From: Cohnella thermotolerans DSM 17683
GTDB taxonomy: Bacteria > Bacillota > Bacilli > Paenibacillales > Paenibacillaceae
DNA length: 64,000 bases
Reading direction: 5' to 3'
Assembly: GCF_000429825.1 (NCBI RefSeq)
Contig: NZ_AUCP01000001.1
Coordinates: forward strand, 372,001-436,000
Shown here: in pieces, positions 44,746-61,777 of the stretch
Layout: the number at the start of each line of letters is the position of its first letter
How positions within the stretch are numbered: the first letter of the stretch is position 1
Made by a program: the position numbers and the translations under genes
The notes under the pieces: model-generated
Database searches by the model: none
What the model was told of the DNA's origin: nothing
What the model saw: only the letters and a program-made list of their open reading frames with translations

Positions 44746-46404
44746 TTATTTCGTTTTGCTCTTATAGTCGTCGTAGTATTTCTGCATCATTTCCAGATTT
44801 TGCGGCAGGCCGATTTTGTTCGCGTTTTGTACGTAGCTGTCCCATTCGTTGTCGATGCCGCCCTTGGTAACCCATTGCGAAAATTTCGCCATCGCCAGAT
44901 TCATCAGATTCGTGTTGACCAGGCTCATCGCGTTGTTGTCGTCCTTGCTGTATTTGATGAACATGCCCGGCAGCACGTCGTTGTCCTTGTCGATCGCGTC
45001 GATCGAAGGCATGAGCGGTTCGGTCTGCTTTCCGACGGACTGCATGTCGGTGCCGAGCGTCAGCTTCAGGTCGTCGGCAATGTACATCGGCCCGTTGTCC
45101 GCCCACGTCGACGTCCATTTCCACGTGCCGGGGTCCATCGAAGCGTCCGCGGGAGGCAGCACTTTGTACGAGCCGTCGCCGTTGTCCGCGATGTTCGTGC
45201 CCAGCGAGCCGAACAGCACCTGCATGCTCACCTTCGGATCGTACAGCTCGTTGACGAACTTCATGGCCGCGTCCTTATGTTTGGATTTGGCGGACATGGT
45301 CGCCATATTAACGCCGTAATTGAGCGAGTTGTAATCGTAGTCCCACGACGTTTGGACGGTCGAGTCGGCGGACGCTTTGAGCGGCGGCATCGACGCGTAC
45401 TGAGGAGCGAGCGCGTTGCCGAACCGGTCCGTCACCTCCCAGCCCCAGCTGAACCCGACTTTAGCCGTCTCCCCTGTGCCGCGGGCGACCGACTGGAACT
45501 TCGTATAATCCTGCGTGAACGCTTCCGGATTGATGAGCCCCGCGGCGAAGCATCTGTTCAGGAACTCGACGACCTGCTTGTAGCGTTCGTCAACCAGGAA
45601 ATTTTTGACCTTGCCGTCTTCGGCGAAATACCCTTGCCCGCTGCCGTCGGACAGCGTAATGCCCAGGCTGCCCAGCAGCACCGTCGGCTGGAAGTAGCCG
45701 AAGCCGAGCGTCCCGACGGGCGCAAAGTCCATCGGAATTTCGTCGTTCGCGTCGCCGTTGCCGTTGGCGTCTTTCTCTTTAAAAGCGACCAGCACGTCGT
45801 ACAACTCGTCCCAGGTCGTCGGCATTTTCAGGCCCAGGTTGTCCAGCCATTTCTGGTTGATGAATTGCCTTGTCGCGGTGGCGGGCCAGAAGCGTTGATA
45901 TTTCGGCAACCCGTAAATTTTACCGTCCGTTTGGGTGGCGATCACCTTCGTCTCCGGCTTCGCTTCGAACATCTTCTGCACGTTCGGGGCGTCCTTGGCG
46001 ATCAGCTCCGTCAAGTCCTGGAACAGTCCCGGGAACTGCGCGTAATCGGCGTCGGTAATCGCGTTGGGCCCGATGATCAAATCCGGAATGTCGCCGCTCG
46101 CCAGCAGCGTTCCTTTTTTCTGACCCCAGTCGGCCGTCACCTCCTGCCACTCGATATCGACGCCCGCCCGCTCCTCCGCCTGCCGGAGCCATTCCATCTT
46201 CGACAGCTCCTGCGTCAGCGGGTGCTTCGTGATGATCGCCTTCAACTTTACCTTCGCCGCGCCCGAGCTACCGCCGCTCGCTTCGGCCGGGCTACCGCCC
46301 GCGTTCCCGCCCGCATTTCCGCCGCCTCCATCGTTGCCGCTGCACCCCGCCAATAAAGCCGCCCCCATGCTTAGCGCCAGCAAAACGGCTGTTCCCCTCT
46401 TCAT
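44746..46404 (-). CDS. Extracellular solute-binding lipoprotein (sugar ABC importer)
   Basis: Family 1-type binding protein of 552 residues. It has a lipoprotein signal with lipobox LLAGC (Cys21) and a Gly/Ser-rich linker, then the two-lobed binding fold. Length and sequence fit the LplA/YtcQ-like long binding proteins. It is the first gene of the importer operon. AAGGAGG lies upstream of the ATG, and a cre-like box sits 31 bases in front of the start. The substrate is probably an oligosaccharide, not further defined. Confidence 0.92.
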   Translation of the reverse strand: MKRGTAVLLALSMGAALLAGCSGNDGGGGNAGGNAGGSPAEASGGSSGAAKVKLKAIITKHPLTQELSKMEWLRQAEERAGVDIEWQEVTADWGQKKGTLLASGDIPDLIIGPNAITDADYAQFPGLFQDLTELIAKDAPNVQKMFEAKPETKVIATQTDGKIYGLPKYQRFWPATATRQFINQKWLDNLGLKMPTTWDELYDVLVAFKEKDANGNGDANDEIPMDFAPVGTLGFGYFQPTVLLGSLGITLSDGSGQGYFAEDGKVKNFLVDERYKQVVEFLNRCFAAGLINPEAFTQDYTKFQSVARGTGETAKVGFSWGWEVTDRFGNALAPQYASMPPLKASADSTVQTSWDYDYNSLNYGVNMATMSAKSKHKDAAMKFVNELYDPKVSMQVLFGSLGTNIADNGDGSYKVLPPADASMDPGTWKWTSTWADNGPMYIADDLKLTLGTDMQSVGKQTEPLMPSIDAIDKDNDVLPGMFIKYSKDDNNAMSLVNTNLMNLAMAKFSQWVTKGGIDNEWDSYVQNANKIGLPQNLEMMQKYYDDYKSKTK

Positions 46405-46434
46405 CGGCCGACCTCCTTATCATCGAAAAAAGAG

Positions 46435-46448
46435 ATAAAACGCTTTCA
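46435..46448 (-). promoter_or_regulatory. cre-like box in the leader of the sugar importer operon
   Basis: TGAAAGCGTTTTAT on the minus strand matches 12 of 14 positions of the CcpA operator consensus TGWAANCGNTNWCA. It lies between an AT-rich promoter-like stretch (46455-46490) and the ribosome binding site of the binding-protein gene, where catabolite repression would block transcription. The last two bases deviate. Confidence 0.5.
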
Positions 46449-47150
46449 AATCTTCCGATATATATTTATAAATCGATTATCGTTTTTATTACTTCTCTTT
46501 GCAGAGGATCGTCATTTCAATCCACCAAACACGAAGATGACCGGAATTTCCGGCGGAAGACACGGTTAACCTCATCGAAAAACGTTTGAATGAACTCATT
46601 TCCCATTGAATTAGCAATCGGGTTACGATTATGGACGTTCTTGCACGGTGAATTCTTCCCCGTCAACGCCCCCTGTCCTTGCACCCTCGCTGACAGTTTC
46701 ACAGCGATTTGCCCTCACACTTTTCTATTTGAATCCTTATTGAAGACAGATCTCATGTGATTACCTACCCTCAGCTTACCCGCAAGGCCGCTTAATCGCC
46801 TTGATCTTGGCTTATCCACTTGATCTTGGCTTATCCATTGGAATAGCTTTATTGTCGCCGGAATGCATTGGGGGCGTGGGTTGTTTTCGGCAGCCGGGGC
46901 TTTGCTGTATTGCGTCAGAAAATTAGCGAGCAGCATAAAATATGCATCTGAGCAGAGGGGATGAGACTCAAAATCGAAATAAGAGAGTAGTGCAGCATCG
47001 CAGAGATCCCGGAAATTGGAGGCTAGGCTGGAGGAGCTGGGACGGGGACAGAGGGCATGATGTTGGGAGGACGATATGTTGGGAAGGTCAAGGTGTCTGT
47101 CGAGGGGCGAGCAGATTGGAATAGGGAAATGGGCAACCGGATGCTGCCGA
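46449..47150. other. Gene-poor spacer with a 19-bp tandem duplication
   Basis: About 700 bases without a recognisable gene. A direct repeat TTGATCTTGGCTTATCCA(C/T) occurs twice, at 46801-46819 and 46820-46838. A 61-codon minus-strand frame at 46517-46702 (ending VFRRKFRSSSCLVD) has no ribosome binding site and no recognised family, and could be a remnant. The composition is less GC-rich than the neighbours. Other frames look random. Confidence 0.6.
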
Positions 47151-47191
47151 CATAAAAGCCGGGAAGCGCAAAATCGCGCGTCTCCGGCTTT
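47151..47191 (-). terminator. Terminator after the 71-aa gene
   Basis: An AAAGCCGG/CCGGCTTT stem with a GC-rich interior, followed by TTAT on the minus strand, about 20 bases after the stop of the small gene. Confidence 0.65.
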
Positions 47192-47211
47192 CGCATCTCT
47201 GACCGCAGCGG

Positions 47212-47427
47212 TCAGGAAATATTCAAATAAAGTTTCGTGCCGTCGGAAAATTTGAAGATCGCCGCATCCGACCACAGCTCCACGTTCGTAACTTTTTTCC
47301 ATTTCCGCCTGAATTCGAGATCCAATGCCATCTCCTTCATGCGTTCGTTCAATAATCTGCGGCTTTCCAGCCGGTTTGCCTTGTTTTGGAGCGGAACGGT
47401 TCGCCGCCCGAAACTAAGGACATCCAT
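47212..47427 (-). CDS. Uncharacterised 71-residue protein
   Basis: No family was recognised. The product is basic and hydrophilic in its first two thirds (NKANRLESRRLLNERMKEMALDL, predicted helix), followed by KKVTNVELWSDAAIFKFSDG, a probable beta-hairpin. It is a well-formed gene: GGAGGGAG lies 9 nt before the ATG, an ECF-type promoter-like pair is at 47477-47504, and a terminator follows. A TTG at 47448 would overlap the ribosome binding site. It stands alone between two gene-poor stretches. Confidence 0.7.
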   Translation of the reverse strand: MDVLSFGRRTVPLQNKANRLESRRLLNERMKEMALDLEFRRKWKKVTNVELWSDAAIFKFSDGTKLYLNIS

Positions 47428-47476
47428 GATCAACAGCTCCCTCCGCAATTTGGAATCTCTCTGCTCTCTTCCAAAT

Positions 47477-47504
47477 GTATCGGAAAGACATTAAAAAAGT
47501 TACA
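47477..47504 (-). promoter_or_regulatory. Candidate ECF-sigma promoter of the 71-aa gene
   Basis: On the minus strand TGTAAC (47499-47504), a 16-nt spacer starting with six T, and CGATAC (47477-47482). The spacing and the AAC-type -35 with a CGAT-type -10 resemble ECF sigma promoters of Bacillales. The start codon is about 50 bases downstream. Confidence 0.45.
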
Positions 47505-47553
47505 GGTTTCGACACTCATACTTTCTTAACAATTCGATTTTTGTCGATTGTTG

Positions 47554-48948
47554 TCACAATTCTTTGCGGCTTCTCACTTCGAATATGCCGAATTTTAGGT
47601 AATGGCCTTCCTCGACGCCGCCGAGCTGAGGATGGTCTTTGCCGGCCCCTTGCCAGACGATGCGGCGAAGCGTCTTGCCGGCGTCGGCTGCGGCCTCGAG
47701 CAGCGTCTCCATGAACAGGTCGGGACGAACGTGATAGGAGCAGCTTGCCGTAACGAGGTAGCCGCCTTCGTTGATCAGCTTCATCGCCTGAAGGTTAATC
47801 TCCTTGTATCCTCTGATCGCGCCGGGAACCGCCCGCTTCGTCTTGGCGAACGCCGGCGGATCGAGAATGACGACGTCCCAGGTGCGCCCCTCTGCGGCGA
47901 GAGGCTTTGACGTGTCGATCTTCGCGCCCTGGACGTTGCCGCCGCGCGCCGCGCGCTCTTCCCGCCCGCGCACCTGCTGGCGCAAATATTCGAACGCGTC
48001 CGCCGTCACGAATTCGACCCGGTCTGCGAACCCGTTCCGCTCGACGTTGCGCCGGGCTGTCTCGATCGCATGGGCGGAGACGTCGAGGCAGGTGACTTTT
48101 TTGGCGCCGTACCGGCAGGCGTGCAGCGTGAAGCTGCCCGTATGGGCGAAGCATTCGAGCACCGTCGCGCCGTCCCAATACGGGAACGTCACCGGATTGC
48201 CCTTGGCGTTGACGGGAATGAGTTTGCGTCCTTCTTCCGTCTCGCGTTCCTCCAGCCTAATGCCGCTGCGCGCTCCCCAGCCGGTCATAAGCTGCTCGAT
48301 GGCGGCGCGGTTTTCCCGCTGATCGAAGAAGTAGCCCGTTTTTTGCCCGCCTTCGATGTCCACTTCGATCTTCAGCCCGTTCTCTTCGATCACGATAAAA
48401 CGGGGGCATTCGCCGTACAGAACGCCCGTCCTCTCTTCGAGCCCTTCCAGCGTCCGGACGCCGACGTCGCTGCGCTCGTAAATGCCGCGCGGCGAGAACA
48501 CGTCGATCATGGCCTGCAGCCATTGCTCTCTGGCACGGTCCATGCCGAGCGTCAGCACCTGCACGACGAGCACGTCCTCGAACCGGTCGACGACGAGGCC
48601 CGGAAGAAAGTCCGCCTCGCCGAAAACGACCCGGCACGATTTCTCCTCGCCGACGAACCGCCGGCGGAATGCCGCGCATTGCCGAAATCGGCCGCGGAAC
48701 CATTCTACGTCCATCGCTTCAAGAGGCTGATAGGACACGATGCGTACGGTAATTTGCGAGGCCGGATTCCAGTAGCCCGTCCCGAGATAGTGTCCTTTGT
48801 GGTCGCGGACTTCGACAAGATCGCCCGGCTGCGCTTCTCCCTCCATTCGTTCGATCTCGCTCGAATAAACCCAAGGATGTCCCTGCTCCAGGCGGGGACG
48901 GCGGGAGCGGTTCAGCACAATAACCGCTTGATTGGGGGTCGTCGTCAT
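47554..48948 (-). CDS. Class I SAM-dependent rRNA methyltransferase, RlmI/YwbD family
   Basis: Probable 23S rRNA (cytosine-C5) methyltransferase of 464 residues. The N-terminal PUA domain has RLEQGHPWVYSSEIERMEG and GDLVEVRDHKG. The EEHE-like middle domain includes VDIEGGQKTGYFFDQRENR. The Rossmann core has VLECFAHTGSFTLHA (motif I), VILDPPAFAK and TASCSYHV. Two insertions lengthen it compared with about 396 in E. coli RlmI: one before motif I (GIRLEERETEEGRKLIPV) and one before the DPPAF motif. The ATG at 48948 was chosen; a GTG at 48960 lies too close to its GGAAAGG. Confidence 0.9.
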   Translation of the reverse strand: MTTTPNQAVIVLNRSRRPRLEQGHPWVYSSEIERMEGEAQPGDLVEVRDHKGHYLGTGYWNPASQITVRIVSYQPLEAMDVEWFRGRFRQCAAFRRRFVGEEKSCRVVFGEADFLPGLVVDRFEDVLVVQVLTLGMDRAREQWLQAMIDVFSPRGIYERSDVGVRTLEGLEERTGVLYGECPRFIVIEENGLKIEVDIEGGQKTGYFFDQRENRAAIEQLMTGWGARSGIRLEERETEEGRKLIPVNAKGNPVTFPYWDGATVLECFAHTGSFTLHACRYGAKKVTCLDVSAHAIETARRNVERNGFADRVEFVTADAFEYLRQQVRGREERAARGGNVQGAKIDTSKPLAAEGRTWDVVILDPPAFAKTKRAVPGAIRGYKEINLQAMKLINEGGYLVTASCSYHVRPDLFMETLLEAAADAGKTLRRIVWQGAGKDHPQLGGVEEGHYLKFGIFEVRSRKEL

Positions 48949-49035
48949 GGCTTTGATCACGCCTTTCCGGACATGTCCTGTCCGATTCTCGCATAAATTT
49001 GGGATTGGAGCTTATTGATGAAAGGAGCGCTGCGA

Positions 49036-50037
49036 ATGTTCGCCACCATCGCGGCGGCGTCCGTCTTCGGACTCGCCCTCTTGTTGTCCGGCATGAAGCT
49101 GATGGAGTCCGCGCTCCGGCAATGGGCGGGAAGCCGCTTGCCCGCGGCGCTGCAGAGAACGACCTCCACGCCGCTGAAAGGCTTCTTGACCGGCACGCTC
49201 TCGTCCGCTTTGCTGCAAAGCGGCACCGCCATTACGGTGCTGACGATCGGCCTCGTCAATTCGCGGCTGCTGCCGCTTGCAAGCAGCTTCGGCATCATTC
49301 TCGGCACGAACGTCGGCACCTGCCTGACAACCGAGCTGATGAGCCTTCACATCCATCGCTACGGTTTTCCGCTTCTGGCCGTCGCGTTCGCCGTCTGGCT
49401 GTGGACGGCGCTCTCCGGCGAGATGCGGGCGCTGCCCGGTCTTCCGGGGCGGATGGCGCATCCGCTGCGCTACGGCTCCGCCGCGCTCGCCGGCTTCGGG
49501 CTGCTGCTGGTCGGCTTCGCCGTTCTCCAAACGATCGGGCCGACGCTGCTGGGAAGCGGCACGTTCATGAACCTGATGGCGCACGCGGAGAGCCGTCCGA
49601 TCTGGGGGGTGCTGGGCGGAGCCGCGATTACCGCGGCCGTGCATTCGAGCGCTGCGGTCATCGGCATGTCGATGGGTCTTGCCGCCGCCGGCGCGTTATC
49701 GCCGGTGACCGGCATCGCCGTTATGCTCGGAGCGAACGTCGGCACCTGCTTCACCGGGCTGCTCGCCTCGCTGAGCGGAGGCCGAGGAGGCCGGTTTGTC
49801 GCCCTCGCGCAAATCGCTCTGAACGTATCGGGTGCGCTGCTTTTCTATCCTCTGAAAGGTTGGCTGCTCGCCGCTTCGGCCTGGCTCTCGCCAGGCGAAC
49901 CTGCCGCGCAAATCGCCCATGCCCAAACGATTTTCAACATCGCTTGTTCGCTGCTGGCGCTGCCGTTCGCTTATCTCTGGATGAGCGGCAAAGGGATCGA
50001 ATCCGGCGGCAAACGCTTCAGGCCGCCTGCGGCCTGA
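49036..50037 (+). CDS. yqeW: Na/Pi cotransporter family protein
   Basis: Membrane transporter of the NptA/PNaS family, 333 residues from the ATG at 49036. The two inverted halves each carry the signature: LLQSGTAITVLTIG with ILGTNVGTCLTTE, and AVHSSAAVIGMSMG with MLGANVGTCFTGL. About eight hydrophobic segments are visible, and the C-terminal PhoU-like domain of larger members is absent. AAAGGAG lies 8 nt before this ATG; an ATG at 49018 with GGAG 7 nt upstream is an alternative. B. subtilis has yqeW at the same place, next to mtaB. It is convergent with the Nudix-deoC gene. Confidence 0.88.
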   Translation: MFATIAAASVFGLALLLSGMKLMESALRQWAGSRLPAALQRTTSTPLKGFLTGTLSSALLQSGTAITVLTIGLVNSRLLPLASSFGIILGTNVGTCLTTELMSLHIHRYGFPLLAVAFAVWLWTALSGEMRALPGLPGRMAHPLRYGSAALAGFGLLLVGFAVLQTIGPTLLGSGTFMNLMAHAESRPIWGVLGGAAITAAVHSSAAVIGMSMGLAAAGALSPVTGIAVMLGANVGTCFTGLLASLSGGRGGRFVALAQIALNVSGALLFYPLKGWLLAASAWLSPGEPAAQIAHAQTIFNIACSLLALPFAYLWMSGKGIESGGKRFRPPAA

Positions 50038-50041
50038 AGCG
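50014..50041. terminator. Perfect hairpin over the yqeW stop codon
   Basis: CGCTTCAGGCCGC and GCGGCCTGAAGCG, a 13-bp inverted repeat with a 2-base centre, include the TGA stop at 50035-50037. It has no T-tract on either side. It lies between convergent genes, so it may limit readthrough in both directions. Confidence 0.5.
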
Positions 50042-50091
50042 ACGGGATCGGCCGGCTCGAATGCGAGCGCTGAATGCCTTCGCTGGCGAAC

Positions 50092-51237
50092 TTAATAGGC
50101 GTCGTTCGATGCTGCGCCTCCGCTCGCGATGACGACGCCCGAGCTCGTGCCGATCCGGTTGGCGCCGGCGAGGAGCAGCCGGACGGCCGTCTGCGCATCG
50201 CGGATGCCGCCGGACGCCTTCACGCCGATTCGCGGGGAGACGCTTGCCCGCATGAGGCGAATGTGCGCTTCCGTGGCGCTGCCCGGTCCGAACCCGGTGG
50301 ACGTCTTGACGTAGTCCGCTCCGGCCGCTTCCGCCAGCCGGCAAGCTTCGCGGATGAGGGCGTCCGTAAGCGCCCCCGTCTCCAGAATAACTTTGACGAG
50401 CGCTCCGCCTTGGACCGACTGGACGACGGAAGAGATATCTTTCTCTACAGCCGTGTAATCCTCGTCCAGCAGCTTGCCGATCGGCAGCACCATATCGATC
50501 TCCGCCGCTCCGTCCTCGACGGCCGCCGCCGCCTCGAACGCCTTCGCCCGGGTCGCCCCCGCCCCGAGCGGAAATCCGACGACCGCGCACACCTTCACAT
50601 TCGTTCCGCTGAGCTGCTCGCGGCATTGGCGAACCCATTTGCCGTTGACGCAAACGCTGTAAAATCCGTGCTCAAGCGCTTCCTCGCACAGCCTGGCGAA
50701 ATCCGCAGACCGCGCTTCCGCCTTCACCAGCGTATGGTCGATAAACGGGGCGATCGGTTGCCCGGGCCGCCAGATCGGGAATTTCCCCCGATAATCGGAC
50801 GTCTCGTCCGGTCCGACCTCGCAGCCCAGCCGCCGGAGCGCCTGGCGAAGCACCTCGTCGTTGGTGTCGTAGCCTTCGGCAAGCTGCAGCCGCCAGCTCT
50901 CTCCGGGCTCGTGCCAGGCGACGCCGGCGATCTCGCTCTCCTGCGCGCGGAGCGTGCCCCGATCCGCTTCGACCAGATAGTAATGCACTTCCTTCTGCAC
51001 GGTCACTTGCTCCGCGGATTCGTATTCGTAGCGAACGACCGACAACGGTGCGACGATCGTGCCGGAGATGCCCGTCTCTTCCCGGATTTCCCGGAGAGCC
51101 GTCTGCTCGATCGTCTCTCCCGGCTCCGCTTTGCCTTTGGCCAGCGTCATTTTCCCGAAACGGTCCCGGATCAGTTGAATTTCCAGCCTGCCGTCCCTGT
51201 TCCGGTATACGACGCCGCCCGCCGAAATCTCCTTCAT
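50092..51237 (-). CDS. deoC: Nudix hydrolase-deoxyribose-phosphate aldolase fusion
   Basis: A single open frame of 381 residues joins two enzymes. Residues 1-140 are a Nudix hydrolase with a complete 23-residue Nudix box at 35-57 (GKAEPGETIEQ...REETGI). Residues 163-381 are deoxyribose-phosphate aldolase (DeoC), which splits deoxyribose-5-phosphate. The Schiff-base lysine is Lys311 in VKTSTGFGPGS, with Lys340 in VKASGG and Asp248 in EIDMV. The linker holds WRPGQPIAPFIDHTL. The ATG at 51237 has GGGGG 8 nt upstream. It follows mtaB after a terminator. The Nudix substrate is unknown; nucleotide clean-up linked to deoxynucleoside catabolism is an inference. Confidence 0.9.
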   Translation of the reverse strand: MKEISAGGVVYRNRDGRLEIQLIRDRFGKMTLAKGKAEPGETIEQTALREIREETGISGTIVAPLSVVRYEYESAEQVTVQKEVHYYLVEADRGTLRAQESEIAGVAWHEPGESWRLQLAEGYDTNDEVLRQALRRLGCEVGPDETSDYRGKFPIWRPGQPIAPFIDHTLVKAEARSADFARLCEEALEHGFYSVCVNGKWVRQCREQLSGTNVKVCAVVGFPLGAGATRAKAFEAAAAVEDGAAEIDMVLPIGKLLDEDYTAVEKDISSVVQSVQGGALVKVILETGALTDALIREACRLAEAAGADYVKTSTGFGPGSATEAHIRLMRASVSPRIGVKASGGIRDAQTAVRLLLAGANRIGTSSGVVIASGGAASNDAY

Positions 51238-51266
51238 CGCGACATCCCCCTTGCCCTCTATGTACA

Positions 51267-51322
51267 GCAAAAGATTTCATCCCGCAGGCGACTTGCTTTC
51301 GTCTTCCGCGTTATGAAATCTT
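51267..51322 (-). terminator. Probable terminator after mtaB
   Basis: A perfect 10-bp stem AAGATTTCAT/ATGAAATCTT encloses a 32-nt GC-rich loop and is followed on the minus strand by TTTG. It lies between the mtaB stop and the Nudix-deoC start. Confidence 0.55.
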
Positions 51323-51354
51323 CCGCCCTTCTCCTCTTGCCGTGCAATGGCCGT

Positions 51355-52704
51355 TTACGCCTGCAGAGCCGCCGGACGAACGTCCTCCAGCATCTCGAGC
51401 AGCACGCCGCGGTTCTCGTTCACGCCGCTCTCGGTCAGACGAACGCGGCAATGCTTGCGGTACATGCTCTCCTCGCCTTCGAATTCGATCAGCAAATAGT
51501 TGTCCGAATACCCGGCCAGTCTTACTTTGCCGTCCTCTCCCTTGATGACGCGCTCGGTGATGACGTCCAGCTCGCGGCCTTCCCAGCCTTTGCTGTACGC
51601 AGCCTGCAGCTTCTCCGACAGGTCGATCAGCTTGTGCACGCGTTCGTGCTTCACTTCCTCGTCCACCTGATCTTCCATGCGCGCCGCCGGCGTGCCGGTA
51701 CGCTTGGAATACGGGAACACGTGCATCTCGGCGAAGCCGATCCGCTCCATGAACCGGTAGCCGTTCTCGAACTGCTCCTCGGTCTCGCCGGGGAACCCGA
51801 CGATGACGTCGGTCGTAATGGCGACGCCCGGCATCGCCCGCTTGATCCGCTCGATCTTGTCCGCGAACTCGGCCGTCGTATACTTGCGGCGCATCCGCTT
51901 CAAGATGGCGTCGTCGCCGGCTTGCAGCGGGATGTGCAAATGGCGGCACATCTTCCTCGAGCTGTTCAGGACGGCGATCATCTCGTCGTCGATCTGGCTC
52001 GCTTCGATCGAGCTGATCCGAATCCGCTCAAGCCCGTCGATCTTGTCGAGATCGACCAGCAGGTTAGACAGCTTGTAATTTTCCAGATCGTCGCCGTAGC
52101 CGCCCGTATGGATGCCCGTCAGGACGATCTCCTTGTAGCCGGAGGCGACGAGCTGGCGCGCCTGGTTCAGCACGCTTTGCGGGTCGCGGCTGCGCGACAG
52201 GCCGCGCGACCACGGAATGATGCAGAAGGTGCAGAAGTTGTTGCAGCCTTCTTGGATTTTCAGGAACGCGCGCGTCCGGTCCGCGAATGCGGGAACGTCC
52301 AATTCCTCGAATTCGCGCGTCTTCATAATGTTGCGGACAGCGTTGACCGGCTTGCGCTCCCGCTGGATGTCCGCAATATACGTCATCAGCTTGTCGCGGT
52401 CCTGCGTGCCGACGACGAGGTCGACGCCTTCGATGGCCATAATCTCCGCCGGGGACGTCTGCGCGTAGCAGCCCGTAACCGCGATGACGGCGTCCGGATT
52501 GCGGCGCACGGCGCGGCGAATGATCTGGCGGCTTTTCTTGTCGCCGGTGTTCGTCACGGTACAGGTGTTGATCACGTAAACGTCGGCCGTCGCCGTCTCG
52601 AAATCGACCTGCTCGTAGCCTTCTTTTTTGAACAGCTGCCACATCGCTTCCGTATCGTAGAAATTGACCTTGCAGCCCAATGTATAAAATGCCACGGACG
52701 GCAT
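51355..52704 (-). CDS. mtaB: tRNA (N6-L-threonylcarbamoyladenosine(37)-C2)-methylthiotransferase
   Basis: Radical-SAM methylthiotransferase (YqeV) that converts t6A37 to ms2t6A37, 449 residues. The N-terminal UPF0004 domain has Cys11 in TLGCKVN, Cys48 in INTCTVT and a further Cys in VTGCYAQ, which bind one 4Fe-4S cluster. The radical SAM CxxxCxxC reads EGCNNFCTFCIIPWSRG. A C-terminal TRAM domain is present. The ATG at 52704 has GGAGG 9 nt upstream; the TTG at 52713 overlaps that site. Confidence 0.96.
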   Translation of the reverse strand: MPSVAFYTLGCKVNFYDTEAMWQLFKKEGYEQVDFETATADVYVINTCTVTNTGDKKSRQIIRRAVRRNPDAVIAVTGCYAQTSPAEIMAIEGVDLVVGTQDRDKLMTYIADIQRERKPVNAVRNIMKTREFEELDVPAFADRTRAFLKIQEGCNNFCTFCIIPWSRGLSRSRDPQSVLNQARQLVASGYKEIVLTGIHTGGYGDDLENYKLSNLLVDLDKIDGLERIRISSIEASQIDDEMIAVLNSSRKMCRHLHIPLQAGDDAILKRMRRKYTTAEFADKIERIKRAMPGVAITTDVIVGFPGETEEQFENGYRFMERIGFAEMHVFPYSKRTGTPAARMEDQVDEEVKHERVHKLIDLSEKLQAAYSKGWEGRELDVITERVIKGEDGKVRLAGYSDNYLLIEFEGEESMYRKHCRVRLTESGVNENRGVLLEMLEDVRPAALQA

Positions 52705-52709
52705 CCTTT

Positions 52710-53477
52710 TCAACCTCCCAGCTCTCCGGATTCGTAAGCGATGCAGGCGAGGGCGACTAGCGCCGCCGTCTCCGTCCGCAAAATGCGGCGGCCCAGCCCG
52801 ACCGGCACCGCTCCCGCCGCCTTGGCCTGCTCCGCCTCCTGCGGAGCGAAGCCGCCTTCGGGTCCGACGAGCAGCAGCAAACGGGGGGCCCGCCCTCCGG
52901 CGAATCCGTTCCTAAAATCGGCAAGCGCGGGCTTCAGTCCGGCTCCGCGCCTCCCCTCTTCTTCATAGCAAAGCAATGTCAAATCGTATTCGCCAAGCGA
53001 ACCGATCAGCGTCTTCCATGTGCAGACCGAAGCGACGTCCGGCACGATGCCGCGATGCGCCTGTTCGGCCGCTTCCTTGGCGATTTTGCGCCAGCGCTCC
53101 AGCCGCTTGGCTTCCTTGCGCTCGTCGTACTGGACGATCGTGCGCTGCGACAGGAACGGCCGGAAGGCGAACGCCCCCGCTTCCGTTCCCTTCTGGATGA
53201 CCGTCTCCAGCTTGTCGCCTTTGGGCAAGCTCTGGGCGACGGTAATCTGCCACGCCATCTCGGCTTGCGACAGTCGGCGTTCGACGATGCGGGCCTCGAT
53301 CCGGCCGGGCTCGATCGATTCCGCCACGGCGAGCAGCTCGTACCCCGATCCGTCGCAAGCGACGAACTCGTCGCCGGGCCTCGCCCGCATGACCGTCGCC
53401 AGGTGGCGGGCGTCTTCTCCGAGCAGCGTCAAGGACGATTCGCCGATTTGCCCGGAAGGGACGAAATAACGTTGCAT
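52710..53477 (-). CDS. rsmE: 16S rRNA (uracil(1498)-N(3))-methyltransferase
   Basis: SPOUT-class methyltransferase of 255 residues. It begins MQRYFVPSGQIGESSLTL (PUA-like), and the knot is formed by LLLLVGPEGGFAPQEAEQA and LGRRILRTETAALVAL, both typical of RsmE. The ATG at 53477 has GGAGG 10 nt upstream. Order prmA, site-2 protease, rsmE, mtaB matches B. subtilis (yqeT-yqeU-yqeV) apart from the inserted protease gene. Confidence 0.96.
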   Translation of the reverse strand: MQRYFVPSGQIGESSLTLLGEDARHLATVMRARPGDEFVACDGSGYELLAVAESIEPGRIEARIVERRLSQAEMAWQITVAQSLPKGDKLETVIQKGTEAGAFAFRPFLSQRTIVQYDERKEAKRLERWRKIAKEAAEQAHRGIVPDVASVCTWKTLIGSLGEYDLTLLCYEEEGRRGAGLKPALADFRNGFAGGRAPRLLLLVGPEGGFAPQEAEQAKAAGAVPVGLGRRILRTETAALVALACIAYESGELGG

Positions 53478-53547
53478 GACGCGAATCCCTCCGTCTTTTT
53501 TCCCAACCTTCATCATACCTCGTTTGAGCGCGGCCCGCTACCGCCTG

Positions 53548-54261
53548 TTAGAATTTCCAGCCGATCAGACTCGGAAGAATCGGGGATTCGGGATGCGTCC
53601 CGAACATGGAGCCGACCAGTCCGTGCATGCCTTGCAGAATCGGCAGGCTTAGCGAGAACAGCGGCGAGATCGTCGCGGCGCTCAGCGGCGGGATGAAGAC
53701 GAGCAGAAGAAAGACGAAAACGCCCCATTGCTCGTTCTGCGCCATTCGGATCCGCCAGCTGAGCGGCGCGAACTCTTCGACGATGCGATAGCCGTCGAGC
53801 GGCGGAAGCGGGATCAGGTTGAATAAGAACAGGATGACGTTAATATGTAGCCAATAATTCATAAAGGTGGAGATCGTCGCCGTCGCCGCAACCGACGGGC
53901 GGTCGATGACGCCCAGGGCGACCAGCGCGTAAACGACGAGCAGGCCGACGAAGGCGAGCAGCAAGTTGCTGACGGGCCCTGCGGCGGTCACGAGAACGCT
54001 CATGAGCCGCGGCCGCTTGAACCGGCTGCTGCGGACGGGGACCGGCTTCGCCCAGCCGAAGCCGGCCACGAGCAGGAAGAGCATCCCGAACAGATCGAGA
54101 TGCGCCATCGGATTGAGCGTCACGCGCCCCTGCTCGTAAGCGGTCGTATCCCCGAATTTCCAGGCCGTCCACGCATGCGCGAATTCGTGCACCGTAAAGG
54201 CGATAAGCATCGTCAGGATGACGAAAGGCAGCTCGCTGAGGGGATACGCGAAAAAGTTCAT
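53548..54261 (-). CDS. Site-2 protease family protein
   Basis: Intramembrane metalloprotease of 237 residues, M50B type, without a PDZ domain. The zinc-binding HEFAH lies at residues 25-29 in the first membrane helix. The third ligand motif is NLIPLPPLDGY. About six hydrophobic segments are visible. The substrate is unknown. The start ATG overlaps the prmA stop by 4 bases with GGGGGAGG upstream, so it is translated together with prmA. It interrupts the usual prmA-rsmE adjacency. Confidence 0.92.
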   Translation of the reverse strand: MNFFAYPLSELPFVILTMLIAFTVHEFAHAWTAWKFGDTTAYEQGRVTLNPMAHLDLFGMLFLLVAGFGWAKPVPVRSSRFKRPRLMSVLVTAAGPVSNLLLAFVGLLVVYALVALGVIDRPSVAATATISTFMNYWLHINVILFLFNLIPLPPLDGYRIVEEFAPLSWRIRMAQNEQWGVFVFLLLVFIPPLSAATISPLFSLSLPILQGMHGLVGSMFGTHPESPILPSLIGWKF

Positions 54262-55247
54262 TCGTCCTCCCCCTTCGGCTTGCCGGCCACGAACGCGATC
54301 CAGTCGTCCTGGCGGACGCGGTCGATGATCTCGAAGCCGGCGGCGAGCAGTCCCGCCTCTACATCTTCTTCCTTGTTCTTGTAAATGCCGCTGGCGATAT
54401 AAATGCCGCCCGGCTTCAGCACGTCCATCACGTCGGCGATGAACAAGAGAATGATCTCCGCCAGAATGTTGGCGACGACCAGATCGACCGGCGGTCGGAC
54501 GCCGCCCGGCGCCGCGGAGCCTTCGTCCGCTTCCCGCAGCACGCCCAGCAGGTCGCTGTGCTTCACTTCGATGACGTCCTGCAGGCCGTTCAGCTTGACG
54601 TTCTCCGTCGCGCTGGAGACGGCGACGGGATCGAGATCGAGCGCAAGCACGCGCTCCGCGCCCAGCTTGATCGCCCCGATGGCGAGAATGCCGGAGCCGG
54701 TGCCGACGTCGATGACCGTCTCGCCGCCGGAGATGGCCCCTTCCAGCGTGCGCAGACATAAGGCCGTGGTCGGATGGGTGCCCGTGCCGAACGCCATGCC
54801 CGGATCGAGCTCGATGATCACTTCGCCTTCGCGTGGCTCATAATTTTCCCAGGTCGGCTTGATCGTCAGTTTCTCCGTAACGGGTAGCGGCTTGAAATAC
54901 TTTTTCCAGGCGTCCGCCCAGTCCTCTTCCTTCACCTCGGCGACGCTGACGGTGAATTCCCCGGCGTCGTAACCGAATTCCGGAAGGCCGCGCAGCAGCC
55001 GGGTCAGTTCCGCGACCGTCGCTTCCATATCCGTATCTTCCGAATAATACCCTTTGATATGCGCGTAACCTGCCGGTATATCGTTCAGCGGCTTGTCGTA
55101 CCATTGGCCGAGCGACGTATCCCTCGGCTTGTCCGGAGACCACGATTCCTCGATCGAGACGCCCCCGGCGCCAAGCTCGTGCATGTAATGGGCGACCATT
55201 TCCTGTGACTGTTCCGTCGCGAAGACGGTGACTTCGAACCAACGCAA
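54258..55247 (-). CDS. prmA: 50S ribosomal protein L11 methyltransferase
   Basis: Methylates ribosomal protein L11, 329 residues. The N-terminal substrate-binding domain starts LRWFEVTVFATEQSQEMV. The SAM-binding core has DPGMAFGTGTHPTT, VIDVGTGSGILAIGA and VVANILAEII. The start is TTG, chosen because GGGGAGG lies 7 nt upstream and similarity begins here, although the frame is open much further. A sigma-A-like promoter and a leader hairpin lie just upstream. Confidence 0.95.
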   Translation of the reverse strand: MRWFEVTVFATEQSQEMVAHYMHELGAGGVSIEESWSPDKPRDTSLGQWYDKPLNDIPAGYAHIKGYYSEDTDMEATVAELTRLLRGLPEFGYDAGEFTVSVAEVKEEDWADAWKKYFKPLPVTEKLTIKPTWENYEPREGEVIIELDPGMAFGTGTHPTTALCLRTLEGAISGGETVIDVGTGSGILAIGAIKLGAERVLALDLDPVAVSSATENVKLNGLQDVIEVKHSDLLGVLREADEGSAAPGGVRPPVDLVVANILAEIILLFIADVMDVLKPGGIYIASGIYKNKEEDVEAGLLAAGFEIIDRVRQDDWIAFVAGKPKGEDE

Positions 55248-55273
55248 TGGATTTCCTCCCCGATAAGCTCCCG

Positions 55274-55296
55274 GAAGCGCGGGGTTCCCGCGCTTC
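55274..55296 (-). other. Hairpin in the prmA leader
   Basis: A perfect 10-bp stem GAAGCGCGGG/CCCGCGCTTC with a 3-nt loop lies in the predicted 5' untranslated region, about 27 bases before the TTG start. It has no T-tract. Confidence 0.6.
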
Positions 55297-55308
55297 GATT
55301 CGAACACC

Positions 55309-55338
55309 ATTATACACGTTTCTTTTCCATGGACGCAA
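55309..55338 (-). promoter_or_regulatory. Probable promoter of the prmA operon
   Basis: -10 TATAAT (55309-55314) and a partial -35 TTGCGT (55333-55338) 18 nt upstream, on the minus strand. The -10 is perfect; the -35 matches three of six. Confidence 0.6.
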
Positions 55339-55382
55339 AAAAACGGCGCAGCGCAAGGAACGAACAAGCTCGTGCCGGGTAT

Positions 55383-55430
55383 AAAAAAGGATCGCTCCAT
55401 GAAGCCGACAAATCGGCTTAAGGGCGACCC
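55383..55430 (-). terminator. Intrinsic terminator of the 55508-56010 gene pair
   Basis: On the minus strand GGGTCGC pairs with GCGATCC around an inner AAGCCGA/TCGGCTT hairpin and is followed by TTTTTTAT. It cleanly separates this pair from prmA. Confidence 0.87.
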
Positions 55431-55507
55431 ATGCTCGTTTGCGAAAGCCTTTTGGAAGCGTCCACCCGAAATTCCGAAGCGGGCTCCTCGCCGAGCCGGC
55501 CGTTCGC

Positions 55508-55846
55508 TCAATGCACCCGGCCGCCGGCTTGCTCGATCACTTTGCGCGCCTGCTTCGCCGCCTCCGCCGGAATGTCGAGCGATAAGCTGAAAAGCGCGGC
55601 GGGCGGCTCGTGTCCGAGCTCCGCGCCGGCTTCGATGGAGGAGCCGGCCAGCAGCTCGCCTGCGAGCTCGTTCATCGTTCCGGCGGCGGGAGCGACGGCG
55701 GCTCCCGAGCCGAAATCGTCGCCGTGAACGGCCCGCTCCATGCGGAACCGGTTCCCTCGGAGCGAAGCCAGCTTGCGGATCGCCTCTTCCGCCTGGTCCT
55801 GGTCGTCGAAGCTGGCGTGCAGCGGCTGCATGTCCAAAGCCGTCAC
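55508..55846 (-). CDS. Uncharacterised small protein, YflT-like in outline
   Basis: A 112-residue protein. It has an N-terminal HASFDDQDQAEEAIRKLASL segment and a C-terminal FSLSLDIPAEAAKQARKVIEQAGG segment. The beta-alpha pattern at each end recalls general-stress YflT-like domains, but the match is too weak to name. The middle is Ala/Gly-rich. A GTG start at 55846 overlaps the stop of the preceding small gene (GTGA), although its ribosome binding site is very close; a TTG at 55837 or ATG at 55831 could serve instead. Confidence 0.72.
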   Translation of the reverse strand: MTALDMQPLHASFDDQDQAEEAIRKLASLRGNRFRMERAVHGDDFGSGAAVAPAAGTMNELAGELLAGSSIEAGAELGHEPPAALFSLSLDIPAEAAKQARKVIEQAGGRVH

Positions 55847-56010
55847 TCTCCTTCGTATTCGGCGGCTCTGCGGTCGGCTTCGGCCGCCCGGCGCTGCGCT
55901 TCGCGATCCTCTTCGTCCGCCAGCTCGCCCGCAAACTCCACATCTTCCGCTTTGGCCGTCGGTAAAGCCCCGGAAGCCAACGTTATCTCTCGCTCTTGTT
56001 CGCTCATCAT
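55843..56010 (-). CDS. YfhD-like small protein
   Basis: A 55-residue acidic protein. It carries ALPTAKAEDVEFAGELADEE followed by DREAQRRAAEADRRAAEY, which resembles the core of the Bacillales YfhD family (DVEFSxELAD...EAQxRAxxAD). YfhD-type proteins have no established function. AAGGAGG lies 5 nt upstream of the first ATG (8 nt before the second). Its stop overlaps the next gene. The family call is from memory of the motif. Confidence 0.72.
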   Translation of the reverse strand: MMSEQEREITLASGALPTAKAEDVEFAGELADEEDREAQRRAAEADRRAAEYEGE

Positions 56011-56115
56011 CGCAACCTCCTTCGGCCTCCGGCTAACGGCGGCCGTTCATTGCGGTAGTTTGCGTCCGGCTTCCGGCCCTTATTCGTTCGGCAAAGACTT
56101 TGAATCGCGAACAAG

Positions 56116-56165
56116 CGAAAACCGGCCGCCAGCGGATCGGAATCCGCCAGACAGCCGGTTTTTCG
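56116..56165 (-). terminator. Intrinsic terminator after dnaJ
   Basis: An ACCGGC/GCCGGT stem, extended by A/T pairs, encloses an inner GCGGAT/ATCCGC hairpin and is followed on the minus strand by TTTTCG. It closes the hrcA-grpE-dnaK-dnaJ operon. Confidence 0.78.
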
Positions 56166-56172
56166 TTTATCG

Positions 56173-57294
56173 TTATCCGTCGCCGAGAATCGCTTTTTTC
56201 ATCCGTTCGAACAGCGTCTGGTGCTGCTCGTTCGTCGATTCGCCGCTCTTCGCGGCAAATTCCCGAAGCAGCTCCTTCTGCTCCTCGGTCAGCTGCGTAG
56301 GCGTCACGACCGTCACTTTGACATGCTGGTCGCCTTGACCGTAGCCCCGCAGCTTGGGCACGCCCTTGCCTTTGAGCCGGAAATACGTTCCGGTCTGCGT
56401 GCCGCTCGGAATTTTCAGCTTGACCTTCTCGGTCAGCGTCGGAATTTCGATCTCGTCGCCCAAGGCCGCCTGCGTGAACGTCAGCGGCACTTCGCAATAA
56501 ATATCGTCGCCATCCCGCTCGAAAAAGTCGTGGGGCTTGACGCGCAGCACGAGGTACAGGTCGCCCGGAGGACCTCCGCGCAGCCCGCTCTCGCCTTCTC
56601 CGCTGATGCGAAGCTGCGAGCCGTCGTCGACGCCGGCCGGAATTTTGACGTGAATCTTCCGGTTGCGCTTCACCTGGCCGCTGCCGCTGCAAGTCGTGCA
56701 GCGCTCGCGGATGATTTTGCCCCGGCCTCCGCACGCCGAGCAGGTGCGCCGGTTAACGATCCGGCCGAACGGCGTGTTCTGGGCCACTTCCTGCTGGCCG
56801 GTGCCCCGGCAGACGGAACAATTCTCGATCCTCGTTCCCGGCTTGGCTCCGCTGCCGTGGCACGTATCGCACGTCTCGGTGCGGGGAATCGTAATGTCCG
56901 TCTCTTTGCCGAACACCGCTTCCTTGAACTCGATCGTCATCGTATATTGCAGGTCGTTGCCGCGCTGCGGCGCGTTCGGGTCGCGCCGGCCGCCGCCGCC
57001 GAAAAACATGTCGAAGATGTCCCCGAAGCCGCCGCCGAAGTCGGCGGCTCCTCCTCCGCCAAAGCCGGCCATCGGGTCCTCGTGCCCGTACTGGTCGTAG
57101 CGGGCGCGCTTCTGGTCGTCGCTCAGGACGTCATAGGCTTCCTTGACTTCCTTGAACTTCTGTTCCGCATCCGGCTCCTTGTTGACGTCCGGGTGGTATT
57201 TGCGCGCCAAATTGCGGTACGCCTTCTTGATCTCGTCCGCGGAGGCGTTCCGGCCAAGGCCCAGCACCTCATAGTAGTCTCTTTTGTCGGCCAC
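56173..57294 (-). CDS. dnaJ: Chaperone protein DnaJ
   Basis: Hsp40 co-chaperone of DnaK, 373 residues. The J domain has HPD at 34-36. A Gly/Phe-rich region follows (about 75-110). Four zinc-binding CxxCxGxG repeats are present ([32 protein letters not shown]), then the C-terminal peptide-binding domains. The start is GTG with GGAGGTGGAG just upstream. An extended inverted-repeat structure lies between dnaK and this gene. Confidence 0.98.
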
Positions 57295-57311
57295 TTCTCC
57301 ACCTCCATGAG

Positions 57312-57446
57312 GAAAGTCAAAGCCTGATCCGGTTGCCGGTATTGCGCTGCGTCAGATCTCTTCAAAGTGCCGCCGATGGACGGTTCGTAGTCGGCAGAAG
57401 AGACCATTCAGCGCAAAAAGCGGCAAAGGGACATGCTTTGACTTTC
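57312..57446 (-). other. Nested inverted-repeat structure between dnaK and dnaJ
   Basis: Several arms pair concentrically. Outer GAAAGTCAAAGC (57312-57323) pairs with GCTTTGACTTTC (57435-57446). Middle TTGCGCTG (57342-57349) pairs with CAGCGCAA (57409-57416). Inner CTCTTC (57358-57363) pairs with GAAGAG (57397-57402), and TGCCG (57368-57372) with CGGCA (57392-57396). In the transcript the outer arm ends about 6 bases before the dnaJ GGAGG. There is no T-tract directly after it, so it is not a simple terminator. Confidence 0.8.
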
Positions 57447-57465
57447 GGTTTTTCAATCAACCCGC

Positions 57466-59304
<1,839 letters not shown>

Positions 59305-59361
59305 AATGTATATTTCCTCCTCGTATCGTTAGACGCCGGTTAAGTATAGTCGCTGCTGCTA

Positions 59362-59997
59362 TTACCCGCTGACCTTGACCATGGCGGGGCGAATGACCTT
59401 GTCCTTGAGCCAGTAGCCCGGCTGCACCACTTCCACGACCGTCCCTTCCTCGTACTCGTCGGACTCCACCTGCATGATCGCTTGGTGAACTTCCGGATCG
59501 AACGGCTGGCCGACGGGATCCATCGCCTTCAGCCCTTCGTTCTCCAACACTTGCCACAACTGGCGGTAGATCATGTCCACGCCTTTGAGGAACGATTGGC
59601 TGTCCGTCTGTTCTCCGCTCGTCTGCAAGGCACGGCCGAAGTTGTCCACGACCGGCAGCAATTGGGTGATCAGCTTCAGGGAAGCGTATTGGGCCAACTC
59701 TTCCTTCTCTTTGAGCGTGCGGCGGCGGAAATTGTCGAAGTCCGCCTGCGCCCGGAGGATGCGGTTGTTGTACTCTTCAACCTTCTGCTGCAGCTCGGCG
59801 ATTCTCGGATCGTCCTGTGCGGGCGTCTCCTCCGTCGCTTCCGTCGCTTCCGTCGCTTCCGCCGCTTCCGCGGCTTCCGCAGCCTCGGCCGACGCTTCGG
59901 CCGTTCCGGCTTCGTTCGCCTCTTCTGCGGCGGCTTTCGCTTCTTCGCGTTGTTCTTCTTCCATCATTTCCTGCTCCTTCGTCTCTTGGCTGCTCAC
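59362..59997 (-). CDS. grpE: Nucleotide exchange factor GrpE
   Basis: Releases ADP from DnaK, 211 residues. The first 65 residues are an acidic Ala/Glu/Thr-rich tail encoded in part by six 9-nt repeats (59831-59884). The coiled coil (RIAELQQKVEEYNNRILRAQADFDNFRRR) and the C-terminal beta domain ending VVEVVQPGYWLKDKVIRPA are typical. The start is GTG with AAGGAGG upstream. It lies between hrcA and dnaK. Confidence 0.97.
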   Translation of the reverse strand: MSSQETKEQEMMEEEQREEAKAAAEEANEAGTAEASAEAAEAAEAAEATEATEATEETPAQDDPRIAELQQKVEEYNNRILRAQADFDNFRRRTLKEKEELAQYASLKLITQLLPVVDNFGRALQTSGEQTDSQSFLKGVDMIYRQLWQVLENEGLKAMDPVGQPFDPEVHQAIMQVESDEYEEGTVVEVVQPGYWLKDKVIRPAMVKVSG

Positions 59998-60049
59998 GCA
60001 GGATTCACCTCCTTACCGTGCCTCCGGGAGATGGAGGCTATACCCCGCC

Positions 60050-61075
60050 CTATTTGTACCAACGGGCCATGAAAAGGGCCAAGTCCTTGGACATGAAGTC
60101 CAAAAGGCTGATGACCTTGCCGTAATCCATTCGCGTCGGGCCCAGAATGCCGATCGTCCCGAGAGACTGTCCCTCATAGGAATAAGTGGCCGTAATCAAG
60201 CTGCATTGATTGATCGCTTCGACCGAGTTTTCCGTGCCGATCCGCACTTGTATGCCTTCCGGAAGGGCCTGGAACAGCTGCATCAGCTTCGAGGTCTCCT
60301 CCAGCGTGTCCAGAATGTTCTTGACTTTATCGACATCCTTGAATTCCGGCTGCGTCATAATGTTCGTGGCGCCGCTTAGGAAGATCTTCGGCTCCTGGTT
60401 TTCCGCGAGTGCGGTCTCCAGCACTTGAAGAATGTGCTCGCAACGGTCGACGAAGCGGCTCAGCTCCTTGCCGACCTCGCTGTGCAGCACCGACTTCACC
60501 TTGATGAAAGGCACGTTCGCCAGCTTGGCGTTCAGCAGGTTGACGATCTTCTGGATGTCGTCCATGCCGATTCCTTCCGGAATGGCGACGGTCCGATGCT
60601 CGACATGTCCGGTGCTCGTCACGATGATCGCGACGGCGGACGTCTCGTTGATCGGAACCAATTGGAAATGCTTCAAAGTGGTGTTGAACATCTCCGGACC
60701 GAGAACGATCGAAGTGTAGTTCGTCAATTGCGACAGAATGGTCGCGGCATGACCGACCACTTCCTCCCACATGTTCATCTTCTCGGCGAAGAAGCTGCGA
60801 ATCTTGAGCATGTCCTGCTCCCCGATGCCGCCAAGGCGAATCAGGTGATCCACGTAGTAGCGGTAGCCTTTATTGGAAGGGATTCGACCGGCGGACGTGT
60901 GCGGCTGCTCCAGCAGACCGAGTTCTTCCAGATCGGCCATCTCGTTGCGGATCGTGGCCGGACTGTACGCCACATCGCCCCGCTTGGATATACTGCGCGA
61001 ACCTACCGGTTCGGCGGACCGGATATAGTCGTCGACAATGGCGGTAAGGATCATTCTCTGGCGCTCGCTCAGCAT
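60050..61075 (-). CDS. hrcA: Heat-inducible transcription repressor HrcA
   Basis: Repressor of class I heat-shock genes, 341 residues, binding CIRCE. The N-terminal winged helix has MLSERQRMILTAIVDDYI and YSPATIRNEMADLEELGLLEQPHTSAGR. The GAF-like dimerisation domain follows. It is autoregulated through the CIRCE element just upstream and heads the hrcA-grpE-dnaK-dnaJ operon. Confidence 0.98.
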   Translation of the reverse strand: MLSERQRMILTAIVDDYIRSAEPVGSRSISKRGDVAYSPATIRNEMADLEELGLLEQPHTSAGRIPSNKGYRYYVDHLIRLGGIGEQDMLKIRSFFAEKMNMWEEVVGHAATILSQLTNYTSIVLGPEMFNTTLKHFQLVPINETSAVAIIVTSTGHVEHRTVAIPEGIGMDDIQKIVNLLNAKLANVPFIKVKSVLHSEVGKELSRFVDRCEHILQVLETALAENQEPKIFLSGATNIMTQPEFKDVDKVKNILDTLEETSKLMQLFQALPEGIQVRIGTENSVEAINQCSLITATYSYEGQSLGTIGILGPTRMDYGKVISLLDFMSKDLALFMARWYK

Positions 61076-61099
61076 GCCGCATCCCCCTTCCTGGTCTCG

Positions 61100-61126
61100 T
61101 TAGCACTCAGCTAGATCGAGTGCTAA
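61100..61126. promoter_or_regulatory. CIRCE operator
   Basis: The perfect inverted repeat TTAGCACTC-N9-GAGTGCTAA lies between the hrcA promoter and its start codon. It is the binding site of HrcA. Confidence 0.98.
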
Positions 61127-61137
61127 TCGCTACTACA

Positions 61138-61167
61138 AAAATACCAAACCGTTCCGGTCGTTGTCAA
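61138..61167 (-). promoter_or_regulatory. Sigma-A promoter of the hrcA operon
   Basis: -35 TTGACA (61162-61167), 18-nt spacer, -10 TATTTT (61138-61143) on the minus strand, immediately upstream of CIRCE. Confidence 0.8.
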
Positions 61168-61223
61168 GAACGAACGGTCGATTTGGCCTGATTGCGCAGT
61201 TAAAGCAAGCTTCGAATCGGCGC

Positions 61224-61691: not shown

Positions 61692-61736
61692 GCGAGTCCC
61701 TTCTTTCCTCTCTCCGAATATCAATCGATGTGAATA

Positions 61737-61765
61737 AATATACAACAGAGCGAATGATAACTCAA
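61737..61765 (-). promoter_or_regulatory. Probable promoter of the GNAT gene
   Basis: TTGAGT (61760-61765), 17 nt, TATATT (61737-61742) on the minus strand, in the AT-rich gap after hemW. Confidence 0.65.
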
Positions 61766-61777
61766 GAGAGATTTTTA

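Follow-up and report, generated by a model that had tools for sequence, protein, structure and literature searches.

Nudix hydrolases and deoxyribose-phosphate aldolases (DeoC, or DERA) are normally separate proteins, as the initial annotation remarked, and they are encoded by separate genes in many relatives of the strain considered here. The substrates of Nudix enzymes are hard to predict. The products of those that hydrolyse dinucleoside polyphosphates (ApnA hydrolases), like those of MutT1, are nucleotides, and contain no free deoxyribose-5-phosphate. A passage of PMC5389931 describes, for the ApnA hydrolases, a conserved X-loop tyrosine located after the Nudix box (Tyr87 in the human enzyme), and one in PMC10148737 reports crosslinks between Ap4A and the E. 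coli proteins DnaK and GroEL.

Analysis of a 64,000 nt stretch of the Cohnella thermotolerans DSM 17683 genome (hereafter, the window) revealed a gene in which the two enzymes are joined. A single uninterrupted frame of 381 codons, at positions 50092..51237 of the minus strand (ATG at 51237, TAA stop at 50092-50094), encodes a Nudix half followed by a DeoC half; the list of open reading frames starts this frame at an upstream TTG, which gives 392 aa, while the ATG gives 381 aa. The Nudix half (residues 1-138; 50824..51237, minus strand) matched Pfam PF00293 over residues 5-125 (E 1.1e-19; 71.2 bits for a cut-off of 21.1). Its Nudix box, GX5EX7REX2EEXG[ILV], was read from the sequence and is complete at residues 35-57 (G35-I57; 51067..51135, minus strand); positions G35, E38, E41, R49, E50, E53, E54, T55 and G56 were invariant in 34/34 aligned fusions. 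This alignment, used for the structure model, comprised the 36 fusions without the near-copies G012 and G036. The DeoC half (residues 161-381; 50095..50757, minus strand) was recognized as deoC at equivalog level (NCBIfam TIGR00126; residues 163-370, 255.8 bits for a cut-off of 117.3). Comparison with DeoC sequences placed the Schiff-base lysine at Lys311 (codon 50305..50307), the second active-site lysine at Lys340 (50218..50220) and the active-site aspartate at Asp248 (50494..50496), all on the minus strand; the roles are those of the corresponding residues of E. coli DeoC. The single frame, the box and these three residues are exactly where the initial annotation had placed them.

The predicted structure of the fusion had a mean pLDDT of 90.6 and a pTM of 0.62, values that suggest two domains, each well folded, in an uncertain orientation to one another. 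The only stretch of three or more residues with a pLDDT below 50 (residues 143-150) falls within the linker (residues 139-160; 50758..50823, minus strand). In a structure search with this model, the DeoC half matched the DERA 8qps (Z 36.8, rmsd 1.4, 220 residues) and the Nudix half the Ap4A hydrolase 3i7u (Z 22.4, rmsd 1.2, 129 residues, 33% identity); 3i7u was the only Nudix entry among the 50 structure matches listed, in a search that tested the Nudix half only lightly.

The fused frame is not an indel artefact, since the same uninterrupted frame was present in 15 of the 36 other Cohnella genomes (73–83% identity; 16/37 when the window's genome is counted). A sequencing indel joining two genes was ruled out on these grounds and by the occurrence of fusions in other families. 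Neither a hidden indel between the domains nor separate genes in all close relatives, the two ways in which the initial annotation foresaw being mistaken, was thus found. The fusion occupies a slot that lies between mtaB and a Na/Pi transporter gene throughout Cohnella. In the 37 genomes of this genus, the slot contained the fusion in 16, both genes as separate units in 10, a lone Nudix gene in seven, a lone DeoC gene in two (G001 and G025) and neither in two. Fused members include C. xylanilytica, C. laeviribosi, C. nanjingensis and Cohnella sp. REN36, while the genes are separate in C. faecalis, C. luojiensis, Gorillibacterium timonense and Paenibacillus turpanensis. The search for the same architecture in relatives, which the initial annotation had recommended, found it in Cohnella, elsewhere in the order (G046, G067 and G137) and class-wide. 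When the Nudix half was searched by itself across the class, 154 of 398 genomes gave matches; at least 18 of the matches, among 150 places listed and with the window included, lay in a frame of at least 350 aa. All 17 of the other long frames fetched were Nudix-DeoC fusions, that of G744 having a DeoC half that is degraded; 23 of the 132 shorter frames among the matches listed were also fetched. A phylum-wide search of 398 genomes at E <= 1e-75 returned no fusion besides that of the window, a threshold strict enough for distant fusions in the phylum to have escaped it. No paper on a Nudix-DeoC fusion was found in the open-licence literature. Each domain belongs to a known family; the fusion is real and its joined form seemingly undescribed, though domain databases may list the architecture.

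Upstream of the fusion, and on the same strand, lie mtaB, rsmE, prmA, dnaJ, dnaK and hrcA; downstream there is a convergent Na/Pi cotransporter gene (49015..50037, plus strand; Pfam PF02690). The neighbours were identified by Pfam, except dnaK, which was recognized from its sequence. The upstream neighbour mtaB, the same across the genus (51355..52713, minus strand), matched UPF0004 and Radical_SAM; the next gene, rsmE (52710..53516, minus strand), used with it as a control pair, matched RNA methyltransferase and PUA domains. In 40 class-wide loci, a DeoC gene followed the Nudix gene in 35 and the convergent Na/Pi transporter was found in 38, while mtaB was no more than 300 nt upstream of the Nudix gene in 21 loci, at a greater upstream distance in 13 and beyond the retrieved sequence in six. 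The Nudix-DeoC-transporter arrangement is thus the more constant part. The distance of 117 nt between mtaB and the fusion gene, and the presence of other sequence between mtaB and the Nudix gene in 13/40 loci, indicate that linkage to the dnaK cluster is no general feature. The Nudix and DeoC genes are long-standing neighbours, which in the window close the dnaK heat-shock cluster.

An Rfam scan of window positions 46000-62000 gave no match, and a promoter scan of 49900-51500 found no promoter. One terminator-like site was detected in the latter interval (plus strand, position 51284), which is no more than expected by chance. An inverted repeat with perfect 12-bp arms and a 4-nt loop is present at 50014-50041, where the Na/Pi transporter gene ends and just past the stop codon of the fusion; it has no T run, and is a possible two-way terminator. 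Farther upstream, a frame located between prmA and rsmE (53548-54759) bears an HEFAH motif in its second part, which resembles a site-2 (M50-type) membrane protease. At locus L120 (G034), mtaB falls into two frames with a break close to residue 254, reflecting either a frameshift or an assembly error.

Profile searches identified the Ap4A hydrolase aq_158 (E 7.5e-27), the Ap6A hydrolase Ndx1 (E 1.1e-21) and MutT1 (9cxx; E 6.7e-15) as the nearest solved relatives of the Nudix half. The first two scored highest and MutT1 followed, relatedness being a weaker tie than function. The curated MutT1 family NF052459 was matched by 12/12 Nudix rows, far below its cut-off (48 versus 475 bits), and the PHROGs matches comprised three Nudix families plus one weak match to a portal protein. 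Residue Y70 was invariant in 12/12 cases and Y72 nearly so; these are candidate equivalents of human Tyr87. Judging from the nearest solved relatives, the Nudix half would most likely hydrolyse dinucleoside polyphosphates and/or oxidized (d)NTPs; against this assignment stands the low identity, 33%, of the nearest solved structure on which it draws. The crosslinking of Ap4A to DnaK and GroEL would fit an ApnA hydrolase encoded in a dnaK cluster, although it proves nothing; no paper linking a Nudix hydrolase to a dnaK operon was found in the open-licence literature.

The initial annotation had proposed that the Nudix half supplies DeoC with its substrate, by releasing a deoxynucleotide or a sugar phosphate in a salvage or sanitation channel. 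The repeated change in fusion state described below, about a dozen times on the trees, could be taken in its favour, as could the grouping of a nucleotide pyrophosphohydrolase with deoC and its neighbours in a table row for P. gingivalis (PMC10434189). Also in its favour, DeoB, which usually acts one step ahead of DeoC, was matched in 37/37 genus genomes (over cut-off in 36); this route into DeoC exists, but is several steps away. The proposal was not supported by the remaining evidence: the closest solved relatives of the Nudix half are ApnA hydrolases and MutT1, whose products include no free deoxyribose-5-phosphate; a dNMP could reach DeoC only after cleavage by an N-glycosidase, and no match to the nucleotide N-glycosidase family PF05014 was found in the window's genome at E <= 0.001, this family being over cut-off in 6/37 genus genomes (four fused, two paired); the slot holds Nudix without DeoC in 7/37 genomes and DeoC without Nudix in 2/37; and the slot DeoC is without its lysine in 13 genomes. 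A channel is accordingly improbable. Since ApnA- or MutT1-type chemistry yields no deoxyribose-5-phosphate, no N-glycosidase match was found in this genome and the DeoB route is distant, joint production of the two enzymes is favoured over channelling.

The DeoC half is probably active as an aldolase, because it is the only DeoC found in 5/37 genus genomes and in seven of the 12 other fused genomes queried, and the Schiff-base lysine is kept in all 12 genomes in which it is the sole DeoC found. In the fused clade the median dN/dS was 0.153 for DeoC, 0.162 for Nudix and 0.141 for mtaB. The window's genome carries a second deoC beside a gene coding for a regulator with a sugar-binding domain, which we read as deoR-type. 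In the 30 genomes from which the second deoC was fetched it always had the lysine, and a regulator match was found nearby in 27 of them, that of G001 being partial. In G004 the second deoC (G004:C1:73267-73931) is broken into two frames, and the fused DeoC may thus be the sole intact one there.

The 13 slot DeoCs without the Schiff-base lysine had Gln at this position in 11 cases and Arg in one, the fused G046; in the last, the fused G744, the motifs were gone. All 13 genomes carry another, lysine-bearing DeoC. The two fused cases are from outside Cohnella: in G046 (L125:3964-5175) the Lys-to-Arg change is accompanied by a changed phosphate-site motif, and in G744 (L172:3865-4986) both lysine motifs are lost and the DeoC half is damaged. 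The Gln form (VQTSTG or IQTSTG) was present in every slot DeoC (11/11) that occurs unfused in the Cohnella sister clade (L032, L033, L035, L036, L038, L039, L043, L044, L045, L047 and L049); 10 of them adjoin a Nudix gene, G025 having none. These proteins retain the second lysine (11/11), the aspartate (10/11) and, largely, the phosphate-site motif, and their median dN/dS of 0.157 (26/55 pairs usable, dS near saturation) indicates purifying selection. The separate DeoC of G418 was left out of the active-site comparison. The Gln-type proteins form a candidate pseudo-aldolase clade; no title on a DeoC pseudoenzyme was found in the open-licence literature.

The slot DeoC might then be viewed as a partner protein that assists the Nudix enzyme by binding a ligand or in a structural role, with the aldolase activity secondary and lost at least three times. 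The persistence of the Gln form beside a Nudix gene and under purifying selection, and the state of G046 and G744, would agree with such a role, as would the strict Nudix box, intact in 101/104 rows and differing in the other three at its last Gly only. Against it, the lysine is kept wherever the fused DeoC is the sole DeoC found, G001 and G025 keep the slot DeoC without a Nudix domain, and seven of the 37 genomes have Nudix without a slot DeoC; we regard this explanation as quite improbable. Hardly more probable is a narrower version, in which the slot DeoC would be evolving into a Nudix partner that, by binding a sugar phosphate, comes to tune the Nudix half or to act as its scaffold, having become in one Cohnella clade a dedicated Lys-to-Gln pseudo-aldolase with most of its active site and its fold kept.

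The fusion label required 12 changes on a tree of rsmE plus mtaB (103 rows), 12 of them forced by well-supported branches, and 11 changes on a tree of Nudix plus DeoC (92 rows), at least six of them forced; these counts cannot separate gain from loss of the fusion. Both trees were quick ones with long branches, made without a mixture model, and 6/109 rows with too little rsmE or mtaB sequence, the fused G569 and G539 among them, were dropped from the first. A single origin, considered in view of the 12 and 11 changes, is not favoured; Nudix and DeoC seem to have been joined many times in Bacilli. For Cohnella together with G046, a single fusion and a later split in the sister clade take as many changes as two fusions would. 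The fused rows of the genus plus G001 formed one clade (SH-aLRT 89; 90 on the rsmE plus mtaB tree), and were not drawn as one clade on the Nudix plus DeoC tree. In the 36 fusions, 27 to 76 residues separate the last GY motif of Nudix from the DeoC core, a length that varies by lineage. A Met is present at the would-be old start of DeoC in several fusions (for example G678, G472, G539 and G569), and is probably that old start. In the separate pairs of G002, G031, G051 and G057, the candidate DeoC start overlaps the end of Nudix by 8 bases in another frame, so that a small frame change could fuse the two genes.

The main rival explanation is that the fusion is simply tolerated: close or overlapping neighbours would fuse by chance, and the product would persist without a function of its own because both domain ends are exposed. 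The Met at the presumed old start is in line with it, as are the Nudix-only and DeoC-only states common in the sister clade and the tightness of the pair: the approximate Nudix-DeoC gap was below 60 nt in 96% of 92 loci. The control pair speaks against it. Nudix and DeoC were in one frame in 36/92 loci (approximate median gap -10 nt; fusions are over-represented in this set), whereas the equally tight rsmE and mtaB (approximate median gap -3 nt) were in one frame in 0/80. The pairs prmA-rsmE (0/24) and mtaB-Nudix (0/83) were likewise never in one frame, and a class-wide search with mtaB (324 genomes with a match) gave no frame longer than 564 aa among the matches listed, which cover roughly half of these genomes. 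Since rsmE and mtaB may tolerate fusion less well, this control is not decisive. The frequency of loss also speaks against chance fusion: one half was lost in 1/17 genomes of the fused clade versus 10/20 in the sister clade (Fisher p 0.004), a comparison confounded by the Gln change and by shared ancestry. Overall, we hold chance fusion without function to be rather unlikely.

That fusion protects against loss was considered and is not claimed, since the genomes are not independent of one another and the Lys-to-Gln change is a further difference of the sister clade. In G001 (L031), a close relative inside the fused clade, the start region, the linker and DeoC are kept and the Nudix domain is gone, probably through a deletion inside a fused gene; the two halves can thus be parted.

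Our preferred reading, held tentatively and at slightly less than an even chance, is that of a bifunctional stress or house-cleaning protein, an ApnA and/or oxidized (d)NTP hydrolase produced together with a DeoC aldolase without channelling between them. Two tightly linked, sometimes overlapping genes have become one frame, here at the end of the hrcA-dnaK-dnaJ-prmA-rsmE-mtaB cluster, as comparison with the relatives shows, by a mutation whose exact nature we can only infer. Given its active-site residues, the DeoC half would work as a class I aldolase, converting deoxyribose-5-phosphate into glyceraldehyde-3-phosphate and acetaldehyde. The gain from the fusion would most likely lie in the co-production, in equal amounts, of two enzymes dealing with nucleotide debris after stress, with no hand-over of a shared intermediate. 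About a dozen changes in fusion state beside an equally tight pair that was never found fused hint at a functional tie between this Nudix family and deoxyribose-phosphate catabolism in Bacilli. The fusion thereby offers a way to seek the substrate of a widespread Nudix family (154/398 class genomes), and the Lys-to-Gln clade provides a natural test of what the DeoC fold does without Schiff-base chemistry.

Compared with known systems, the DeoC half resembles class I DeoC/DERA (TIGR00126; PDB 8qps and 6d33) over its whole length (Z 36.8); it shares 54–55% identity with the Geobacillus DERA, and the lysines and the aspartate are common to both. Unlike known DeoC/DERA proteins, the fusion carries an N-terminal Nudix domain, and it sits after mtaB rather than beside a deoR-type regulator, where the second deoC of the same genome lies. 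The mycobacterial MutT1 (PDB 9cxx; NF052459) is likewise a Nudix domain within a longer protein, but the Nudix half of the fusion falls far below the cut-off of the MutT1 family. The C-terminal part of MutT1 is a phosphatase-type domain, not DeoC. The pyrophosphohydrolase grouped with deoC in P. gingivalis is presumably of the MazG type, not Nudix. In that organism, a nucleotide pyrophosphohydrolase and deoC appear in one table row (PMC10434189), but as separate genes. The Ap4A and Ap6A hydrolases (Aquifex aq_158, PDB 3i7u; Thermus Ndx1, PDB 1vc8) are like the Nudix half by profile, and 3i7u by structure as well (Z 22.4), but their chains, 134 and 126 residues long, have no second domain.
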